Assembly: GCA_017405965.1 (NCBI GenBank) | Contig: JAFQZK010000011.1 | Location: forward strand, 1 to 64,000 | DNA length: 64,000 nt | Direction: 5' to 3' | DNA from: Muribaculaceae bacterium | Lineage (GTDB): Bacteria > Bacteroidota > Bacteroidia > Bacteroidales > Muribaculaceae | Part shown: piece after piece, positions 15,885 through 60,274 of the stretch | Layout of the letters: every line of letters starts with the position of its first letter | How positions within the stretch are numbered: position 1 is the first letter of the stretch | The notes under the pieces: model-generated | Seen by the model: only the letters and a program-made list of their open reading frames with translations | Told to the model about the DNA's origin: nothing | Database searches by the model: none | Made by a program: the position numbers and the translations under genes

Positions 15885-18287
15885 ATGGCTAGAAAAAGCG
15901 GATTGCAATCGTTGAAACAGGAACGTCGTGAATTCCACGACCGCGTCATCAACTTCTTCAATGAGCAGGGAGAGGCTCCCTTCAATTACAAGCAGGTGTC
16001 GGCTGCCGTCGGCGCCAATACACCCAAACGCCGTACACTCATCGTCGATATTCTGGAACAACTGGCGGTGGACGGCTTCCTGGTACAGGTGGGACCCGGC
16101 AGTTTCAAGGCCATGAACCGGTCATCGGTCGCCGAGGGCATCTTCATCCGTCGCAGCAACGGCAAGAACAGTGTGGACACCGCCTGCGATGACGGACAAC
16201 CAATCATGGTTGCCGAGCGCAACTCGATGCATGCCTTGAACGGGGACCGCGTGCTGGTGCACATCCGTGCCGCACGCCACGGTCTGGAACCCGAGGCCGA
16301 GGTGGTGAAAATCCTGGAACGCAAGGAACAGGTGTTCGTGGGAACCCTGCAAGTGCTGAAATACTTCGCACAACTGGCCAGCGACAGCAAGTTCTTGGCC
16401 ACCGATATCTTCATCCCGCTGGATAAACTCGCCGGAGGAAAGACCGGCGACAAGGTGGTGGTGAAAATCGTGGACTGGCCCGAGGACGCCAACTCGCCCA
16501 TCGGCGAAGTGGTGGATGTGCTGGGCTTGGCTGGCGAGAATAATGCCGAGATCCATGCCATCCTTGCCGAGTTCGGCTTGCCTTACAAGTATCCCGAAAA
16601 CGTCACACAGGCCGCCGAGGCCCTTGACCCCGGCATCACCCCCGAGGAGATCGCCAAGCGACGCGACATGCGCGGTGTGACCACTTTCACCATCGACCCT
16701 GCCGACGCCAAGGACTTTGACGATGCGTTGTCGATCGAGAAACTCAAGAACGGCAATTGGGAAATCGGCGTGCACATCGCCGACGTGAGCCACTATGTGA
16801 CACCGGGCTCCATCATCGACAAGGAGGCCTATGAGCGCGCCACATCGGTCTATCTGGTGGACCGCACCGTGCCCATGCTGCCCGAGAAACTCTGCAATTT
16901 CATCTGCTCGCTGCGACCCCACGAGGACAAACTCACCCACTCGGTCATCATGGAGATGGACGCCGAGGCCAAGGTGAAGAAATACTCGATTTGCCACACC
17001 GTCACCAACAGTGACAGGCGCTTCTCCTACGAGGAAGCCCAGCACATCCTGGAGACCGGCAAGGGCGACCTCGCCGAGGAACTCGCCGTCCTTAACGAGA
17101 TGGCGAAGCAACTGAGGAAACGACGCTTCGACGAGGGCGGCTCGGTGTCTTTCAACCGCGAGGAAATCAAGTTTGAAATCGACGAGCAGGGCAAGCCCAC
17201 CGCTGTGCACGTCCACGTGGCCCAGGACGCCAACAAACTCATCGAGGAATTCATGCTCCTGGCCAACTGCAAGGTGGCCGAGCACATCGGCAAGGTGCCC
17301 AAGAACAGGAACGCCAAGTCCTTTGTCTATCGTGTGCACGACCAGCCCGATCTGGACAAACTCCAGAACTTCGCCGACATCGCCGCCCACTTCGGCTACA
17401 AGGTGCGTACCAAGGGGTCGGGCCGCGACATCAACAGGTCCATCAACAAGATGCTGGAACAGGCCAAGGGCAAACCCGAGGAGGAGATGCTCTCCATCCT
17501 CGCCATCCGTTCGATGGCAAAGGCCATCTACAGCGCCACCAACATCGGCCACTACGGACTGGCATTCGACTTCTATACCCATTTCACCTCACCCATCCGC
17601 CGTTACCCCGACTTGATGGTTCACCGCTTGCTGGACGTGTATGCTGCAGGCGGCAAGAGCGTGGATCCCGTGAAGTTGGAAGACCAGTGCAAGCACATGA
17701 GTTCCCAGGAGCAGCTCGCCGCCAACGCCGAACGCGCCTCCATCAAGTACAAGGAGGTCGAGTTCATGGGACAGCGCCTGGGCGGTGTGTTCAAGGGACA
17801 CATCTCGGGCGTGACCGAGTGGGGCCTGTATGTGGAGCTCGAGGAGACCCATTGCGAGGGTCTGGTGGGCATCCGCGGCTTGGATGACGACTTCTATGAG
17901 TTCGACGAGAAGAACTATTGCATCCGTGGCTGTCGCCGCAACCGCGTCTATCGCTTGGGCGACCCCATCACCATCCAGGTGGCACGCGCCGACCTCATCA
18001 AGAAACAGCTCGACTTTGTACTCGTCGATAAGGAGAACCCTGCCGACAGCCACCGCATCGACAAGGAGCCCATCACCGAGCAGAACAGCCGCAGCACCAG
18101 CGGACGCCTGTCGCGTGACGAGCGCCAGCGCATGCAGTACGAGGGTGGTAGTGCCTCACGTCGCCAGCAACGCGGCAATCGCGGCAACAGCACCCGCCGT
18201 CAGGCCCGTGAGGTGCGTGACAACAAAGTCGGGAAAATAGGCCGCAAATCCGGCCGCTCAGGCAAACCCCGCGGCCGCAAAAGATAG
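15885..18287 (+). CDS. rnr: Ribonuclease R
   Basis: The 800-residue 3'-5' exoribonuclease of the RNB family degrades structured RNA. An N-terminal winged-helix region (about 15-75) precedes two cold-shock OB domains. The catalytic RNB domain has the metal-binding cluster IDPADAKDFDDALS (about 271-284), and SPIRRYPDLMVHRLL is the late conserved motif. An S1 domain (about 645-725) contains GHISGVTEWGLYVELEE, followed by a strongly basic tail of about 60 residues rich in Arg, Gly and Ser. The gene is followed by a 12-unit nonamer array that runs up to mtaB. Confidence 0.95.
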   Translation: MARKSGLQSLKQERREFHDRVINFFNEQGEAPFNYKQVSAAVGANTPKRRTLIVDILEQLAVDGFLVQVGPGSFKAMNRSSVAEGIFIRRSNGKNSVDTACDDGQPIMVAERNSMHALNGDRVLVHIRAARHGLEPEAEVVKILERKEQVFVGTLQVLKYFAQLASDSKFLATDIFIPLDKLAGGKTGDKVVVKIVDWPEDANSPIGEVVDVLGLAGENNAEIHAILAEFGLPYKYPENVTQAAEALDPGITPEEIAKRRDMRGVTTFTIDPADAKDFDDALSIEKLKNGNWEIGVHIADVSHYVTPGSIIDKEAYERATSVYLVDRTVPMLPEKLCNFICSLRPHEDKLTHSVIMEMDAEAKVKKYSICHTVTNSDRRFSYEEAQHILETGKGDLAEELAVLNEMAKQLRKRRFDEGGSVSFNREEIKFEIDEQGKPTAVHVHVAQDANKLIEEFMLLANCKVAEHIGKVPKNRNAKSFVYRVHDQPDLDKLQNFADIAAHFGYKVRTKGSGRDINRSINKMLEQAKGKPEEEMLSILAIRSMAKAIYSATNIGHYGLAFDFYTHFTSPIRRYPDLMVHRLLDVYAAGGKSVDPVKLEDQCKHMSSQEQLAANAERASIKYKEVEFMGQRLGGVFKGHISGVTEWGLYVELEETHCEGLVGIRGLDDDFYEFDEKNYCIRGCRRNRVYRLGDPITIQVARADLIKKQLDFVLVDKENPADSHRIDKEPITEQNSRSTSGRLSRDERQRMQYEGGSASRRQQRGNRGNSTRRQAREVRDNKVGKIGRKSGRSGKPRGRKR

Positions 18288-18288
18288 C

Positions 18289-18396
18289 CCCTAAAGTCCC
18301 TCAAGACCTTAATGACCCTAAAGTCCTTAATGTCCTTAAAGACCTTAATGTCCTTAAAGTCCTTAAAGTCCTTAAGGCCCTTTAAAACCCTCAACG
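18289..18396 (+). repeat. Array of twelve 9-base units between rnr and mtaB
   Basis: Beginning two bases after the rnr stop there are twelve consecutive 9-mers with consensus CCTTAAAGT (variants CCCTAAAGT, CCTTAATGT, CCTTAAGGC). The spacing is exact throughout, and the array ends 7 bases before the mtaB start. It is the largest member of a class of short-period arrays in this window. Confidence 0.9.
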
Positions 18397-18403
18397 ATTA
18401 AAA

Positions 18404-19714
18404 TTGAACGCCGAACATCAATATACTGTAAAGCTCGAGACCCTGGGCTGCAAGCTCAACTTCTCCGAGACCGCGACGATGCAGTCACTGCTCGCCCGCC
18501 ACGGCATTGTTCCTGTCGCCAGAGGCGAAGCACCCGACGTGTGCGTGGTCAACACATGCAGCGTGACGGCGCTTGCCGACAGCAAGTGCAGGCAACACAT
18601 ACGCCACCTCATCCGTCAATACCCCGACACCCTGATGGTGGTAACAGGTTGCTATGCCCAGCTCAAGGGCAAGGAAATCGCCGAGATTCCCGGGGTGGAC
18701 ATCGTATTGGGCAGTGAGCACAAGGCCGAGATCGCGCAGTATGTGCTGCAATGGTTCAAGGACCGCAAACAGCGCACCGAGGTGACACCCTCGCTCGACA
18801 TACACACGTTCTCGCCCTCCTGTGACCATGGTGACCGCACGCGCTACTGGCTCAAGGTCCAGGACGGCTGCGATTACTGGTGCAGCTACTGCACCATCCC
18901 AGCCGCTCGTGGCCGCAGCCGCAGCGGCACGATTGCCGATCTCACGGCCCAAGCCCGCGAGGTGGCCGCCGAAGGGGGCAAGGAAATCGTCATCACGGGC
19001 GTGAACATCGGCGACTTTGGCAAGAACACGGGCGAGGACTTCCTCGACCTGCTCAAGGCGCTCGACGACATCGAGGGCATTGAGCGCTACCGCATCTCGT
19101 CGATCGAGCCCGACCTGCTCTCCGATGACATCATCGACTGGTGCGCCCGGTCAAGGGCTTTCATGCCGCATTTCCACATCCCCTTGCAGAGCGGCAGCGA
19201 CCCCATCCTCAAACTCATGCGCCGCCACTACAACCGCCAGTTGTTCGCCGACAAGGTGCAACGCTGCCGCGAACTGATGCCCGACTGCTTCATCGGGGTG
19301 GACGTGATGGTGGGCACCCGAGGCGAGACGCCCGACCTGTTCGAGGACAGCTATGAATTCATCAAGGGGCTGAAAGTGCAACACCTGCACGTGTTCCCCT
19401 ATAGCGAGCGCCCCGGCACGATGGCGCTGCGCATCCCCTATATCGTCACCCAGCAGGACAAGCAGGCTCGCGCTGCACGCATGATTGCCCTGAGCGACGA
19501 GAAACAGGCCGACTTCACGCGTCGCTACTTGGGCACCGTGCGCCCCGTCTTGCTGGAACATGGCCGCGGCAAGGGCTTGATGCACGGCTTCACCGACAAC
19601 TACATCCGTGTCAATGTCGAGCCAGACATGAGTCTTGCCAACCAAATCGTGAATGTGAAACTTCTTACCCTAAACGAGGACTTGAGCGTCAATGCCCAAG
19701 TCATAACGGAATGA
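18404..19714 (+). CDS. mtaB: tRNA t6A37 methylthiotransferase
   Basis: The 436-residue enzyme is a radical SAM methylthiotransferase that makes ms2t6A37. The three cysteines of the N-terminal cluster are in LGCKLNFSE, NTCSV and TGCYAQ, and the radical SAM triad is in QDGCDYWCSYCTIPAARGRSRS. A TRAM-like C-terminal end follows. MtaB is favoured over MiaB because of the GCKLN motif and because miaB is already present. The start is a TTG at 18404: no ATG or GTG lies in frame between the stop at 18383 and the first cysteine motif. It overlaps the GT2 gene by ATGA. Confidence 0.92.
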   Translation: MNAEHQYTVKLETLGCKLNFSETATMQSLLARHGIVPVARGEAPDVCVVNTCSVTALADSKCRQHIRHLIRQYPDTLMVVTGCYAQLKGKEIAEIPGVDIVLGSEHKAEIAQYVLQWFKDRKQRTEVTPSLDIHTFSPSCDHGDRTRYWLKVQDGCDYWCSYCTIPAARGRSRSGTIADLTAQAREVAAEGGKEIVITGVNIGDFGKNTGEDFLDLLKALDDIEGIERYRISSIEPDLLSDDIIDWCARSRAFMPHFHIPLQSGSDPILKLMRRHYNRQLFADKVQRCRELMPDCFIGVDVMVGTRGETPDLFEDSYEFIKGLKVQHLHVFPYSERPGTMALRIPYIVTQQDKQARAARMIALSDEKQADFTRRYLGTVRPVLLEHGRGKGLMHGFTDNYIRVNVEPDMSLANQIVNVKLLTLNEDLSVNAQVITE

Positions 19715-20733
19715 AAAAAGTAGCTGTTATCATATTGAACTGGAACGGAGCCAAGCTGCTGCGCCACTACCTGCCCACAGTGATTGCGGGCTCCGATGAC
19801 ACTATTGCCGACGTTATCGTCGCCGACAACGGCAGCTCCGACGACAGCTTGCAGGTGCTCCAACAGGACTTCCCGCAAGTCAAAGTACTGAAATTTGACG
19901 TCAACTACGGATTCGCCGAGGGTTACAACCTGGCCATCCGTCAGACCATGTACCCTTATACCGTCCTGCTCAACAGCGATGTACGCACGCCCCAAGGGTG
20001 GCTCAACCCGCTGCTGGAATACATGGAGGACCATCCCGACGTGGGCGCCGTGATGCCCAAACTGTTGCACGACCGCGACGACGGCAAGCAGATGTTTGAA
20101 TATGCCGGCGCTGCAGGCGGCTATATCGACTGCCACGGCTATCCCTATTGCAGGGGACGCATCTTTGAGTACCTGGAAGAGGACAAGGGGCAGTACGACG
20201 ACGGCCCCAAGAGCGTCTTCTGGGCCACGGGAGCATGCCTGATGGTGCGCAGCCAGTTGTATCAACAAGTGGGCGGACTCGACAAGGATTTCTTCGCCCA
20301 CATGGAGGAGATCGACCTGTGCTGGCGCATACGCTTGGCGGGCAGCGAACTGATGATGGTGCCCACGAGCCACGTCTATCACCTGGGCGGCGGCAGTCTG
20401 CCCCAGGGCAACCCCCGCAAGACCTACCTCAACTTCCGCAACAACCTGTTGCTGCTGCACAAGAATCTGCCTCATGACGAGGGCAAACGTCTGCTTTTCA
20501 TCAGGCGCCTGCTGGACACGCTGGCCTTCGGCATGGCACTGGGCAAATTCCACTTCAAGGATGCCTGGGCCATCGTGAGAGCCCACCGCGACTTCCGCGA
20601 GAAGAGGAAGAACTACAAGTCGCAACCCTCGGTCAACCTGCTCAAGGCGCTGCCCGAGGAGCGCGTCAACATCATCACCGCCCACTATCTGCGCGGCGTG
20701 AAACGCTTCCCCGACCTGAGAATCAACTACTAA
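19711..20733 (+). CDS. Glycosyltransferase family 2, rhamnosyltransferase-like
   Basis: This 340-residue GT-A enzyme opens with VAVIILNWNGAKLL and has the DNGSSDDS loop and LLNSDVRTP metal-binding motif. A CLMVRSQL segment and the catalytic HMEEIDLCWRIRLAG follow (general base Glu/Asp). Such proteins add rhamnose or another sugar to O-antigen or capsule chains. No transmembrane anchor is evident, although the C-terminal third has a weakly hydrophobic helix. It overlaps the mtaB stop by ATGA, so it is probably translationally coupled to mtaB even though the functions are unrelated. Confidence 0.88.
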   Translation: MKKVAVIILNWNGAKLLRHYLPTVIAGSDDTIADVIVADNGSSDDSLQVLQQDFPQVKVLKFDVNYGFAEGYNLAIRQTMYPYTVLLNSDVRTPQGWLNPLLEYMEDHPDVGAVMPKLLHDRDDGKQMFEYAGAAGGYIDCHGYPYCRGRIFEYLEEDKGQYDDGPKSVFWATGACLMVRSQLYQQVGGLDKDFFAHMEEIDLCWRIRLAGSELMMVPTSHVYHLGGGSLPQGNPRKTYLNFRNNLLLLHKNLPHDEGKRLLFIRRLLDTLAFGMALGKFHFKDAWAIVRAHRDFREKRKNYKSQPSVNLLKALPEERVNIITAHYLRGVKRFPDLRINY

Positions 20734-20745
20734 GGTTCCCAAACT

Positions 20746-20808
20746 CCCTAAAGTCTTTAAAGTCCCTAAAGACCTTAAAGACCCTAAGGACCCTAGAAAC
20801 CCAAAAAA
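20746..20808 (+). repeat. Array of seven 9-base units before the aldo-keto reductase
   Basis: Units CCCTAAAGT, CTTTAAAGT, CCCTAAAGA, CCTTAAAGA, CCCTAAGGA, CCCTAGAAA, CCCAAAAAA share their consensus with the rnr-mtaB array. The array ends 9 bases before the start codon. Confidence 0.85.
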
Positions 20809-20817
20809 TAAACGACA

Positions 20818-21930
20818 ATGAGAAAGCTTGGATTTGGACTGATGCGTCTGCCCCTGGTCAACCCTGACGATCAGACGAGCATCGACATCGAGAAATTTAA
20901 GGAGATGGCCGACTTGTTCATCGAGCGTGGCTTCACCTACTTCGACACCGCCTATCCCTATCACGGCGGCAAGAGTGAGGAAGCCTTGCGCGAGGCTGTC
21001 GTCAAGCGCTATCCCCGCGAATCATTCACCGTCACCAGCAAGATGCCCGTGTGGGCCATCAAGGAGGAAGCCGACATGGAACGCATCTTCAACGAGCAGC
21101 TGGAGAAGTGCGGCTTGGACTATTTCGACTATTACTGGCTCCACGCCCTAAACCGTGAGCGCGTTGCAGCCATCGACAGTGTTGACGGCTGGGGCTTCGT
21201 GGTAAGCAAGCGTGATGAGGGCAAAATCCGCCACATCGGATTCTCGTTCCACGATGAATCAAAACTGCTGGCCGAGATTCTGGACAAGCATCCCGAGATG
21301 GAATATGTGCAGTTGCAGATCAACTATCTGGACTGGGACAGCCCGGCCATCGAGTCCAAGGTGTGCTATGAACTCTGCGAGAAACACGGCAAGCCGGTCA
21401 TCGTCATGGAACCCGTCAAGGGTGGTTCACTGGCCCACGTCCCCGAGGCTGTCGGTCGCCTGTTCAAGGAGTATAACCCCGAGGCCAGCCCTGCATCCTG
21501 GGCCATACGCTACTGCGCCTCGTTGCCCAATGTGTTAACGGTATTGAGCGGCATGAGCAACATCGAGCAGATCGACGACAACACCGCCTACATGCAGGAC
21601 TTCCAACCTTTCAATGACGAGGAGCAAGCGATCATCGCCCAAGTCACCCAGACCATCCGCGATGCCATCGCCATTCCCTGCACCGCCTGCCAGTATTGTT
21701 GTGACGGATGCCCGCAGCAGATTGCCATCCCGGCCTATTTCAACCTCTACAACACGACGCAGCAGTTCCCTGGTCTTAAGAGCAACAGCAAACTTTACTA
21801 CGACCTGCTCGCCAAGAGCCACGGCCGTGCCAGCGAGTGCCTGGAGTGTGGCCAGTGTGAGGCCCAGTGCCCCCAGCACATCGACATCATCGACAACCTG
21901 AAACTTGTCGCCGAAACCTTCGAGCAATAA
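20818..21930 (+). CDS. Aldo/keto reductase with C-terminal ferredoxin domain
   Basis: This 370-residue protein has an aldo/keto reductase barrel in residues about 1-280, with the catalytic Asp/Tyr in YFDTAYPYHGG, Lys in TSKMP and His in WLHALNRE. It is followed by a ferredoxin-like domain with two 4Fe-4S motifs, CTACQYCCDGCP and CLECGQCEAQCP. This architecture is known in anaerobes, where the reductase probably draws electrons from ferredoxin as well as NAD(P)H; the substrate is unknown. The nonamer array replaces a conventional leader. Confidence 0.9.
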   Translation: MRKLGFGLMRLPLVNPDDQTSIDIEKFKEMADLFIERGFTYFDTAYPYHGGKSEEALREAVVKRYPRESFTVTSKMPVWAIKEEADMERIFNEQLEKCGLDYFDYYWLHALNRERVAAIDSVDGWGFVVSKRDEGKIRHIGFSFHDESKLLAEILDKHPEMEYVQLQINYLDWDSPAIESKVCYELCEKHGKPVIVMEPVKGGSLAHVPEAVGRLFKEYNPEASPASWAIRYCASLPNVLTVLSGMSNIEQIDDNTAYMQDFQPFNDEEQAIIAQVTQTIRDAIAIPCTACQYCCDGCPQQIAIPAYFNLYNTTQQFPGLKSNSKLYYDLLAKSHGRASECLECGQCEAQCPQHIDIIDNLKLVAETFEQ

Positions 21931-22810: not shown

Positions 22811-22838
22811 TAACAGCTAACAGCTATATGCTGATAGC
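22811..22838. repeat. Four 7-base units after tdk
   Basis: TAACAGC, TAACAGC, TATATGC, TGATAGC, with exact 7-base phase, followed by ACTTTTTC. It includes a weak AGCTAT/ATAGCT hairpin and may serve as a terminator for both convergent genes. Confidence 0.55.
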
Positions 22839-31032: not shown

Positions 31033-31068
31033 CCACTATAGCCACTATAATCACTATAGCCACTATTA
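31033..31068 (+). repeat. Four 9-base units between uppP and truB
   Basis: CCACTATAG, CCACTATAA, TCACTATAG, CCACTATTA, exactly 9 bases apart; ends 10 bases before truB. It starts 4 bases after the uppP stop. Confidence 0.85.
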
Positions 31069-31941: not shown

Positions 31942-31977
31942 TTCTAGAACGTCTAGACCATCTAGATTATCTAGACC
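31942..31977 (+). repeat. Four 9-base units between truB and queA
   Basis: TTCTAGAAC, GTCTAGACC, ATCTAGATT, ATCTAGACC; each unit carries the palindrome TCTAGA. The array ends 22 bases before queA. Confidence 0.85.
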
Positions 31978-44308: not shown

Positions 44309-44350
44309 ACTAAAAGCTAAAGACTAAAGACTAAGGACTAAAAACTAAAA
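44309..44350 (+). repeat. Six 7-base units upstream of the YpfJ-like gene
   Basis: ACTAAAA, GCTAAAG, ACTAAAG, ACTAAGG, ACTAAAA, ACTAAAA, exact 7-base phase. It occupies the 5' leader and ends 12 bases before the ATG. Confidence 0.85.
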
Positions 44351-47552: not shown

Positions 47553-47720
47553 ACGGTCCCCCATGTCAAGGCCCCAAAAGTAAAAACGGTCCCCCGTGTC
47601 GAGGCTCTGCCTCGGCCCCAAAAGAAAAAAGGTCCCCCGTGTCGAGGCTCCGCCTCGGCCCCAAAAGTAAAAACGGTCCCCCGTGTCGAGGCTCCGCCTC
47701 GGCCCCTAAAATAAAAGAAA
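47553..47720 (+). repeat. Four tandem units of about 44 bases with GC-rich hairpins
   Basis: Units begin GGTCCCCC at 47555, 47589, 47631 and 47675. Three contain a hairpin GAGGCTCCGCCTC (one variant GAGGCTCTGCCTC) followed by GGCCCCAAAAG. The first copy lacks the hairpin arm, giving spacings of 34, 42 and 44. The array fills the spacer between the DciA-like and thioesterase genes. Confidence 0.85.
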
Positions 47721-50051: not shown

Positions 50052-50096
50052 AGGTCCCGTACCATCAGTAATATCCGTCATATCCGTCCCGTCAGA
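50052..50096 (+). repeat. 9-base repeat between the KdsD-like and TPR genes
   Basis: Units ACCATCAGT, AATATCCGT, CATATCCGT, CCCGTCAGA, spaced by 9 bases and less regular than others; the array starts right after the stop and ends 7 bases before the next ATG. Confidence 0.7.
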
Positions 50097-51892: not shown

Positions 51893-51937
51893 TAACCCCG
51901 TTACATCCGTTATCTCCGTTACATCCGTTACAATCGT
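51893..51937 (+). repeat. Five 9-base units between the TPR-GDPD ORF and ribH
   Basis: TAACCCCGT, TACATCCGT, TATCTCCGT, TACATCCGT, TACAATCGT, exact 9-base phase, ending 5 bases before ribH. It shares ATCCGT with the array at the 5' side of the same ORF. Confidence 0.85.
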
Positions 51938-52440: not shown

Positions 52441-53172
52441 TTACATCAGGAAATTAATCAGAGCCATCACATCCGAGATGGTCACTTCTCCGTCGCCGTC
52501 AAAGTCATACTTCTTCTCGCTGTTCTGACCCAGGATGGCGTCTATCACTGCATTGACATCGGCAATGGTCACTTCGCCGTCACCGTTCAGGTCTCCGGTT
52601 ATCGGCTTCACAATGCCAGGAACTACAAGTGTTATCTTGTCTGTTATGTCATTGTATCCTTCGGCCTGGCCCCATGCCGTCAACTCATATAGCATATCGC
52701 CGTCGGGACTACGCTCGATGCTGTAAGGATTATCAACCGGTACGCCATCACAGAACAAACTCACTGTAAAATGATCATCATCACTATAAGCAAATACCGT
52801 GTAATATTCGTCTCCTTCTATGACATCAAAATAAAGCATTGGGGGCGGACTGGGTAATGGCGTTTGTTCCAGAGCAGGAACCAGCAGCCAATAGTCCACG
52901 ACATTGCTGTAGTACCAGCTACCCTCACTATATATTTCAGCGTAGGCCATGATGTGGTATTCTACATCTTCTTCCAGGCGTTGGATGACATAAGGGGTTT
53001 CTATCTCCCAATTACCATTGAACACACGCAACCCATAATCGCCCTCGACTTCAACATCAACGACGTAGTATTCTTCCCCCTCGGTTACAGTGATGACGGG
53101 GTCAGGAACCTCAATGGCGTGGGCTACGCTCGCCATGAGAAACATCAACAGGAAATACAATACTTTTTTCAT
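52441..53172 (-). CDS. Secreted protein with C-terminal dockerin-like pair
   Basis: The 243-residue protein has a signal peptide (to about residue 19, ending AHA). Two beta-rich repeats follow (about 22-100 and 105-185; VTEGEEYYVVDVEVEGDYGL and VIEGDEYYTVFAYSDDDHF are similar to each other). A dockerin-type pair ends it (GDLNGDGEVTIADVN, then YDFDGDGEVTISDVM). I do not recognise the beta domains, but they are probably fibronectin-like. Likely surface-attached or periplasmic. Confidence 0.7.
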   Translation of the reverse strand: MKKVLYFLLMFLMASVAHAIEVPDPVITVTEGEEYYVVDVEVEGDYGLRVFNGNWEIETPYVIQRLEEDVEYHIMAYAEIYSEGSWYYSNVVDYWLLVPALEQTPLPSPPPMLYFDVIEGDEYYTVFAYSDDDHFTVSLFCDGVPVDNPYSIERSPDGDMLYELTAWGQAEGYNDITDKITLVVPGIVKPITGDLNGDGEVTIADVNAVIDAILGQNSEKKYDFDGDGEVTISDVMALINFLM

Positions 53173-58959: not shown

Positions 58960-60210
58960 TCACTGCTTGGGCGTCACGGGCTGCCACAGGTAGAGCTTGT
59001 CGCTAGGACGGATTTTCTCAGGCACCGCGATAGAGAAATGTTCGCCCTTGACAGTTTTCTCCACTGGTTTGAGATCGACGCGTATTTCCTCAATGGTCAA
59101 GGGGATGGCTCCCGTCGTGGGACCGATGATCCAGGCTTCGTCGCCCACGTGCAGTTCGCCGGCTTCCATCAGGAACTCGGCGACACCCAGTTTGCTGTAG
59201 TAGCGGATGCCCTTGGCGACATAGACCTTGACGCGCGTGGCGCTGGAACCGTATTTGGCCGACCACTCGCCCAGCCTTTGACCCATGTAGTAGCCGTCCC
59301 AGAAACCGCGGTTGAACACCTTGCCCAGTCGTTCGTTCCACGCCTCGATGCGCTCCTCGGTATAGGTGCCGTCGCAGATGGCCTTCAACGCCTCGTCATA
59401 GCAACCGACCACCGTGCGCACGTATTCCGGTCCGCGTGCCCTGCCCTCGATCTTGAAGACGGTGACCCCGGCATCCACCATCTTGTTGATGAAGTGGATG
59501 GTCTTCAGGTCTTTGGGCGACATGATATACTTGTTCTCGATGGCAAGTTCATCGCCGTTGACCAGGTCGGTGACCAGATAGCCGCGACGGCATATCTGGC
59601 GGCAGGCGCCGCGGTTGGCACTGGTGTTCTCCTGGTGCAAGCTCATGTAGCACTTGCCGCTCACAGCCATGCACAACGCGCCGTGGCAGAACATCTCCAG
59701 CCTCACGCGCTCACCATGCGGGCCCCGCACGTCATTTTCCTCGATGAAACGGGAGATTTTGGTCACCTGCTCAAGGTTCAACTCGCGTGCGAGCACCATG
59801 ACGTCGGCCCATTGGCTATAGTAGCGCACCGCCTCGCTGTTGCTCACGTTGACCTGGGTGGAGATATGTACCTCCACGCCGATTGAACGCGCAAACAGGA
59901 TGGTCGCCATGTCGCTGGCGATGATGGCGCTCACCTTGGCGTTACGGGCGGCAGTGACAATCTGCTTCATGTAGTCCATGTCCTCGTCATAGACGATAGT
60001 GTTGACCGTCAGGTAGCTCTTCATGCCGTGCTCGTGGCACCACTCGGCTATCGTGCGCAAGTCCTCGAGCGTGAAATTAACACTCGAGCGCGAACGCATG
60101 TTCAGCCCCTCGATGCCGAAGTAGATGGCATCGGCGCCCCCCTGATGGGCGGCATACAGTGATTCCCAAGAGCCCACAGGGGCCATAATCTCAAAATCAG
60201 ATCGATTCAT
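58960..60210 (-). CDS. U32 family peptidase-like protein (TrhP/YegQ type)
   Basis: The 416-residue protein carries the U32 signature EMFCHGALCMAVSGKCYMS, with further cysteines in RGACRQICRRG that would bind a cluster. U32 proteins of this branch (TrhP) are needed for 5-hydroxylation of wobble uridine in tRNA; others act on collagen. Length and lack of a signal peptide favour the tRNA role, by inference. Its leader holds a CCTTAAAGT-type array; mutS lies upstream. Confidence 0.82.
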   Translation of the reverse strand: MNRSDFEIMAPVGSWESLYAAHQGGADAIYFGIEGLNMRSRSSVNFTLEDLRTIAEWCHEHGMKSYLTVNTIVYDEDMDYMKQIVTAARNAKVSAIIASDMATILFARSIGVEVHISTQVNVSNSEAVRYYSQWADVMVLARELNLEQVTKISRFIEENDVRGPHGERVRLEMFCHGALCMAVSGKCYMSLHQENTSANRGACRQICRRGYLVTDLVNGDELAIENKYIMSPKDLKTIHFINKMVDAGVTVFKIEGRARGPEYVRTVVGCYDEALKAICDGTYTEERIEAWNERLGKVFNRGFWDGYYMGQRLGEWSAKYGSSATRVKVYVAKGIRYYSKLGVAEFLMEAGELHVGDEAWIIGPTTGAIPLTIEEIRVDLKPVEKTVKGEHFSIAVPEKIRPSDKLYLWQPVTPKQ

Positions 60211-60220
60211 TGTTATCAGT

Positions 60221-60274
60221 TTCTTAGGTCTTTATGTCTTTAAGAACTTTAAGGTCCCTAAAGACCTTTAGGAC
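60221..60274 (-). repeat. Six 9-base units between mutS and the U32 gene
   Basis: Read on the plus strand: TTCTTAGGT, CTTTATGTC, TTTAAGAAC, TTTAAGGTC, CCTAAAGAC, CTTTAGGAC. On the minus strand this gives the CCTTAAAGT family seen at 18289 and 20746. It ends 10 bases before the U32 start. Confidence 0.8.

Follow-up and report, generated by a model that had tools for sequence, protein, structure and literature searches.

Heptamer and nonamer tandem arrays in intergenic spacers of a Muribaculaceae bacterium and its relatives

Dispersed intergenic heptamer arrays are already in print, also for Bacteroidetes. In the portions of the reports drawn on here, TAACTGA heptamer direct repeats are described from Beggiatoaceae, Cyanobacteria and five Bacteroidetes (MacGregor, 2015; PMC4679880). 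These repeats are sense-oriented, lie 5′ of start codons, in the main species mostly lack a Shine-Dalgarno site, and differ mostly by 7-nt steps between two Cyanothece strains (PMC4679880). Xanthomonas and Nostoc provide the second described case, heptamer arrays with the unit GGGNATC (Rehm, 2015; PMC4692102). In Xanthomonas these arrays are intergenic and mostly co-directional, with 7-8% between divergent genes, and lie nearer the 5′ ORF; some positions of the unit are more conserved than others, inverted pairs occur, and the related species lacked arrays of similar length at those genes (PMC4692102). Both reports also summarize the long simple-sequence repeats of Mrazek (2007), which have units of 5-11 nt, with heptamers the commonest in most genomes, and for which polymerase slippage was proposed (PMC4679880; PMC4692102). 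Those summaries mention neither nonamers nor stop-codon register nor turnover at orthologous spacers in Bacteroidales. An earlier note, made from the letters of the present DNA, had put forward its tandem arrays as a candidate for something undescribed. For dispersed heptamer arrays this does not hold; for nonamer spacer arrays in Bacteroidales and for a register with stop codons, no description was found in the open-licence literature searched.

The window, i.e., the whole stretch of DNA analysed, comprises 64 kb of contig C6 from a host genome of 3.6 Mb in 40 contigs. All nine arrays claimed for it were confirmed at their sites, and in each the claimed period was the best among periods 3-12. 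The periodicity was equalled in none of 5000 same-base shuffles for eight arrays and in 1/5000 for the ninth (60221-60274). They had been called exact, but adjacent units agree at only 56-83% of positions, and identical adjacent units are rare (1/11 in the longest array, 18289-18396). Array 1 (18289..18396, + strand; period 9, ~12 units of the CCTTAAAGT family; adjacent match 74/99, shuffles 0/5000) occupies most of the spacer between the ribonuclease R gene (15885..18287, +; TIGR02063, 756.6 bits, above cut-off) and the gene for an MtaB-type tRNA methylthiotransferase (18404..19714, +; TIGR01579, 389.1 bits). The latter starts with TTG at 18404, as it does in L009, a very close relative whose MtaB is 98% identical; by eye, many relatives in the genus have ATG. 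Array 2 (20746..20808, +; 41/54, shuffles 0/5000) is of the same family and period, has ~7 units, and lies between genes for a family 2 glycosyltransferase (19711..20733, +; PF00535) and an aldo/keto reductase with a ferredoxin domain (20818..21930, +; PF00248).

Four further period-9 arrays on the plus strand, each with 0/5000 shuffles, were located in the BacA-TruB spacer (CCACTATAG unit; 31033..31068, 21/27), the TruB-QueA spacer (TCTAGANNN unit; 31942..31977, 20/27), the spacer from a KdsD-like gene to GDPD (a weaker array of ATATCCGTC units; 50052..50096, 22/36) and the GDPD-RibH spacer (ATCCGTTAC unit; 51893..51937, 27/36). On the minus strand, the spacer between MutS and a peptidase U32 gene holds a degenerate array that has period 9 and belongs to the CCTTAAAGT family (60221..60274; 25/45, shuffles 1/5000). 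Two arrays have period 7. One (CTAACAG; 22811..22838, unstranded; 14/21, shuffles 0/5000) sits between convergent genes for thymidine kinase (PF00265) and a holin-like protein (PF04020), and the other (ACTAAAG/ACTAAGG unit; 44309..44350, +; 29/35, shuffles 0/5000) lies within the leader of a gene for a zinc peptidase (PF04228). The neighbours of the arrays are ordinary genes (RNase R, MtaB, BacA, TruB, QueA, lumazine synthase [RibH], MutS). Within the window, Rfam gave no match at gathering scores, and no tRNA was found. The distance of 5-22 nt to the next start that had been given was confirmed for the seven arrays measured on the plus strand, and the end of the minus-strand array at 60221 is 10 nt from the ATG at 60210. 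That the unit differs by locus was borne out insofar as several families are present; the arrays at 18289, 20746 and 60221, however, share a CCTTAAAGT-like pattern, the last of them matching the genome-wide form of that pattern with a unit that reads as sense-strand. Nor are all remaining units unrelated, as those at 50052 and 51893 share ATCCGT (by eye).

Spacer arrays were then counted in 464 kb of the host genome (the window plus 400 kb), in which 264 spacers comprise 65,617 nt. At the 3-span setting we found 29 arrays of period 7, 11 of period 9 and none of period 8, and all other periods from 4 to 20 gave 0-2 arrays (period 14, two). Ten shuffles of these spacers produced a mean of 0.0 arrays for periods 7 and 9, and the coding sequence of the same sample (339 stretches, 375,654 nt) contained no array of period 7 or period 9 at this setting. 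Among 35 loci of the same genus, 71 kb of spacer held 63 arrays of period 7, 6 of period 8 and 13 of period 9 (shuffle, 0), and the corresponding numbers in 614 kb of coding sequence were 3, 0 and 12. With shuffles at or near zero and arrays far rarer in coding sequence, a comparison for which the earlier note had asked, the arrays are a genuine, non-chance class with preferred periods. Period 9, which had been taken for the main one, is outnumbered by period 7 by 29 to 11 in the 464 kb. At the 2-span setting, periods 7 and 9 gave 26 and 12 arrays in the host genome, 21 and 5 in G048, and 4 and 2 in G018 (shuffles, 0), so that arrays are few in the G018 sample. G048 and G018, like G207 and G124, were sampled at 200 kb each. 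The last two belong to other families, outside the genus, and each yielded three arrays of period 7, four of period 8 and none of period 9. The 7-plus-9 spectrum is therefore strong in part of the genus and is not a property of the order as a whole.

Gene calls came from a home-made codon model, applied to MAGs that are incomplete. Because start positions are uncertain, the placement of arrays was tested under two start rules. With starts extended upstream, 46 arrays from three genomes of the genus were available in co-directional spacers of ≤400 nt; 22 were ≤25 nt from a start, as against 23.0 expected by chance, and 18 were ≤10 nt behind a stop, as against 10.3 expected (P 0.004). Under the other rule, applied to a wider set, 31/88 were near a start (39.2 expected) and 32 were near a stop (16.7 expected). 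Abutment on the next start codon, which had been described as typical of the arrays, is thus no rule; the shortness of the spacers accounts by chance for the nearness seen. The excess on the stop side comes from TTAG-type heptamers (19/25 vs. 3.5 expected), and ACTNA heptamers were near starts in 13/23 cases (10.7 expected, P 0.2). A location mostly between co-directional genes, also claimed, was upheld: one or more arrays occurred in 45/332 co-directional, 9/71 convergent and 1/75 divergent spacers (Fisher P 0.0012). This avoidance of divergent spacers fits either tolerance, with no promoter harmed, or a role behind genes. The stop codon of the preceding gene was in register with the units in 20/33 stop-proximal heptamer arrays, among which orthologous arrays are not independent, and in 0/6 stop-proximal nonamer arrays. 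In the three-genome set, the register was found in 5/8 arrays of the host (0.9 expected at random phase), 2/9 of G048 (0.7 expected) and 0/1 of G018. Start codons do not belong to the arrays, since a start was in register in only 1/31.

Like the TAACTGA repeats, the arrays of this host include heptamers in intergenic spacers, and the commonest heptamer family here (ACTGAAA, ACTGACA) is one base off ACTGATA, a rotation of TAACTGA (PMC4679880). In the main species with TAACTGA repeats a single unit predominates and heptamers like it are uncommon (PMC4679880), whereas here many heptamer families occur alongside nonamer families, stop-side arrays are mostly TTAG, and nearness to starts does not exceed the chance level. 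With the GGGNATC arrays of Xanthomonas, those of the present genus share the co-directional bias, the avoidance of divergent spacers, the stop-side position, inverted pairs, unit positions of unequal conservation and differences between related species at the same genes (PMC4692102). The GGGNATC unit, however, is G-rich and quadruplex-forming (PMC4692102); here GGG was present on the sense strand of only 2/105 heptamer and 0/28 nonamer consensus units, and nonamers are found as well.

Six gene pairs were compared in 170 unique spacers, the window's included; several of the relatives' loci represent the same species, and only identical ones were dropped. Twenty-two of these spacers were ≤12 nt long (RNase R-MtaB 14, GT2-AKR 4, GDPD-RibH 4). 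The other 148 gave 37 calls of period 7, 20 of period 9, three of period 5, two of period 6 and one of period 8, against 0.35, 0.05, 4.05, 1.2 and 0, respectively, in shuffles, and 88 of them were array-free. Arrays at orthologous spacers are common, not obligatory. All six spacers carry both 7- and 9-base arrays, depending on the species, which contradicts the notion of one fixed period. The proposed comparison of unit turnover came out positive, with different families in relatives and arrays present or absent. Among the 36 RNase R-MtaB spacers, 15 carried arrays, with four or more types of unit among them, and seven were longer than 12 nt but array-free. In the GDPD-RibH spacer, the window has ATCCGTTAC units, and L140 and L144 have CCTTAAAGT-type units by eye, below the array-call threshold; the TruB-QueA spacer of L124 carries the same family, with the TCTAGANNN unit, as the window. 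Within one genus, then, the same operon spacer can be near-absent, array-free or filled with a 7- or 9-base array whose make-up varies from species to species. Compared with L009, array 1 is 36 bp longer in the window (spacers of 116 vs. 80 nt), and array 2 shows two further 9-bp steps in L009 plus one single-base gap (84 vs. 101 nt); a few substitutions also separate the arrays. In this one genome pair and these two arrays, copy number has thus changed by whole units, as fits the suggestion that the arrays are hotspots tuning spacer length.

Taken as a whole, these results suggest that the arrays are probably long simple-sequence repeats that have expanded by lineage and turn over by slippage in gene-downstream spacers, with 7 and 9 as favoured units. 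Overlong tandem runs of units in the 5-11-nt range are what was found (29 + 11 vs. 0.0 shuffled), the runs being imperfect. Whole-unit change, orthologous arrays that differ or are absent, and clade-specific abundance are traits of slippage-prone dispersed repeats. Units would be gained and lost by replication slippage or unequal pairing, and the spacers behind stop codons would be the places where such change is tolerated, because changes there spare the reading frame and the promoter. Secondarily, some copies may serve as A-rich leaders of the next gene that are free of Shine-Dalgarno sites, and other copies may form hairpins with matched heptamer arms.

Several observations run against slippage as the whole account. 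Local slippage from random seeds alone predicts neither shared families nor variation in few columns of the unit. Pure local slippage also does not predict that 78/86 heptamer units contain a sense stop codon, as compared with a shuffled mean of 52.0 and a maximum of 63 in 500 shuffles (antisense, 62). Shared families, few-column variation and sense stops could mean selection on the unit. Slippage as such does not account for a preference for 7 and 9 but hardly 8; the stop register, for its part, is weaker in the independent sample G048. The main fact that slippage leaves unexplained is the spread of families between loci without their flanks.

A CCTTAAAGT-type pattern (≤3 mismatches in 20) had 49 overlapping matches at 23 places in the host genome, and the reversed-pattern control had none. 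All 23 places are between co-directional genes, for which the make-up of 20-200-nt spacers gives a chance of 0.0075 by count or 0.0024 by bases, and the unit is strand-neutral across them (11 vs. 11, one tie). The 150-nt flanks of the 23 loci are unrelated save for one 16-nt match; the shared ends or flanks of transposon-like repeats (MITE, REP) are thus lacking in this family. Matches to the pattern numbered 49 in G000, 35 in G002 and 17 in G018, and 0-6 in the 22 other genomes from this genus, with 0-3 for the reversed control. Across these 25 genomes, matches to TTAGG heptamers reached 465 in G009, 396 in G006, 202 in G021 and 184 in G024 and were 0 in G003, G010, G012, G013, G014 and G016; the control gave ≤9 within the genus but 103 in G040. 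The two counts covary over the whole set (Spearman 0.68, P 0.0002), which is expected of a propensity that acts genome-wide. Among 149 order-level genomes, the host's included, the 9-mer ATCCGTTNN (≤2 mismatches) matched in 10, six of them with a single match; its reversed control matched in one. Four consecutive AACTNAN units were found in 29/149, and the reversed control also matched in many. We read the control matches in the AACTNAN and TTAGG searches as other heptamer families.

An RRM-type protein is a possible binder of such repeats, and the units may be putative sites for a protein that binds RNA or DNA repetitively (cold-shock, S1 or RRM type), with the core as the site and the variable bases as a linker. 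Binding of this kind was proposed for the TAACTGA arrays, with heptamer binding by CspB cited (PMC4679880). Within arrays, variation does cluster in few columns (combined z 8.5 over 25 heptamer arrays, of which 9 have P<0.05 individually; combined z 5.8 over 12 nonamer arrays, of which 4 do), ACT is near-invariant in 43 arrays, though this set was selected for majority ACT, and unit families recur at unrelated loci. The column concentration is, however, partly inflated by block duplication, which has the same effect on variants. Several families differ in core and would call for several proteins, orthologous spacers carry other families, and the strand neutrality of the CCTTAAAGT unit argues against a site on the RNA strand for that family. 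We regard protein-binding arrays as unlikely.

The arrays could also act as ribosome-loading tracts, that is, as leaders that are rich in A, free of structure and suited to initiation in which no Shine-Dalgarno pairing takes part, although this too seems quite improbable. Upstream adenines, together with mRNA structure, tune initiation in Flavobacterium johnsoniae (PMC6847099). The fraction of A in the 25 nt preceding the start was 0.43 in 51 heptamer spacers, compared with 0.35 in 120 of 311 array-free spacers (P 0.0009), and 19/34 sense ACTNA heptamer arrays end ≤25 nt from a start; a start-codon function is most plausible for these ACTNA heptamers. On the other hand, no A enrichment before the start was detected in 17 nonamer spacers (P 0.49), and the MFE of the start region revealed no significantly weaker folding (P 0.09 and 0.21). 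As reported above, arrays do not lie closer to starts than if placed at random, ACTNA heptamers included, and convergent spacers, which precede no start, also carry them. The raised A content of heptamer spacers lends weak and incomplete support to the low-structure loading tracts suggested earlier; the nonamers and the folding at starts speak against them.

RNA hairpins within operons, formed by pairing of stop-proximal with start-proximal heptamer arrays or by folding of self-complementary nonamers, might act as signals for processing, stability or termination. A second heptamer array was found in 28/129 heptamer-array spacers, mostly with a TTAG- or AGTT-like array first and an ACT-like array last, and pairs from the same spacer were slightly more complementary than permuted pairs (-11.67 vs. 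-10.10; P 0.03, 28 spacers). Matched inverted arms were seen in L154, L205, L206, L011, L093 and L039, and inverted heptamer pairs are also known from Xanthomonas (PMC4692102). The 17 nonamer spacers had a mean folding z of -2.56, which was marginal when compared with array-free spacers (P 0.06), and nonamer units contained 6-nt palindromes in 8/28 cases vs. 3.7 when shuffled (maximum 10 in 1000 shuffles), which is suggestive; the corresponding figure for heptamer units was 4/105 vs. 3.6. Heptamer-array spacers, however, fold like array-free ones (z -1.38 vs. -1.16, P 0.33), which rules out hairpins as a general explanation for heptamers, and only the minority of spacers noted above hold a second array. 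Hairpins are therefore a doubtful explanation of the arrays, and we give them little weight.

On a further reading, the array families would be spread by a sequence-specific process that copies the repeat alone, flanks excluded, between spacers, keeps the registers of 7 and 9, and starts heptamers on stop codons. We consider such a process improbable. If real, it would constitute an unrecognised way of building or rewriting operon spacers, possibly tied to translation termination, because most heptamer units carry a sense stop and stops therefore fall in all three frames. A three-frame stop cassette was considered as a general function and rejected; it fits the heptamers, but stops in nonamer units are alike on both strands (16 sense and 20 antisense of 23 units), and none of the six stop-proximal nonamer arrays had the gene's stop in register. 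The differences at the same spacer within the genus open two questions to direct test, namely why 7 (here also 9, hardly 8) is preferred in bacterial repeats and how a family reaches many loci without flanks, and the tie between heptamers and stop codons provides a handle on where arrays begin. It is very improbable that the arrays derive from a mobile or templated element that a transposase or reverse transcriptase has spread, for although families are common to many loci and show clade-specific expansions, flanks were not shared in the one family compared, save for one 16-nt match, and in 25 genomes the counts of Y1 transposase, the candidate spreader, did not correlate with those of the arrays (Spearman 0.19, P 0.36, and 0.05, P 0.80).

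Some minor observations were made in passing. A hairpin core like TTGGCGGATGCCAA adjoins heptamer arrays in L101 (17510-17596), L120, L124 and L126, and its pattern has four exact matches in the host genome. In the TruB-QueA spacer of L113, L115, L118 and L122, period-8 units of the CTTAGCGN type are followed by a GCGTGAGGCCAATAAGG-like segment. Dockerin type I domains are associated with cellulosome-like systems, and the window encodes a protein with a C-terminal domain of this type (PF00404) at 52441-53172. Finally, a 44-bp tandem repeat of 3.4 copies with 93% matching is located at 47570-47716, between two small called genes.
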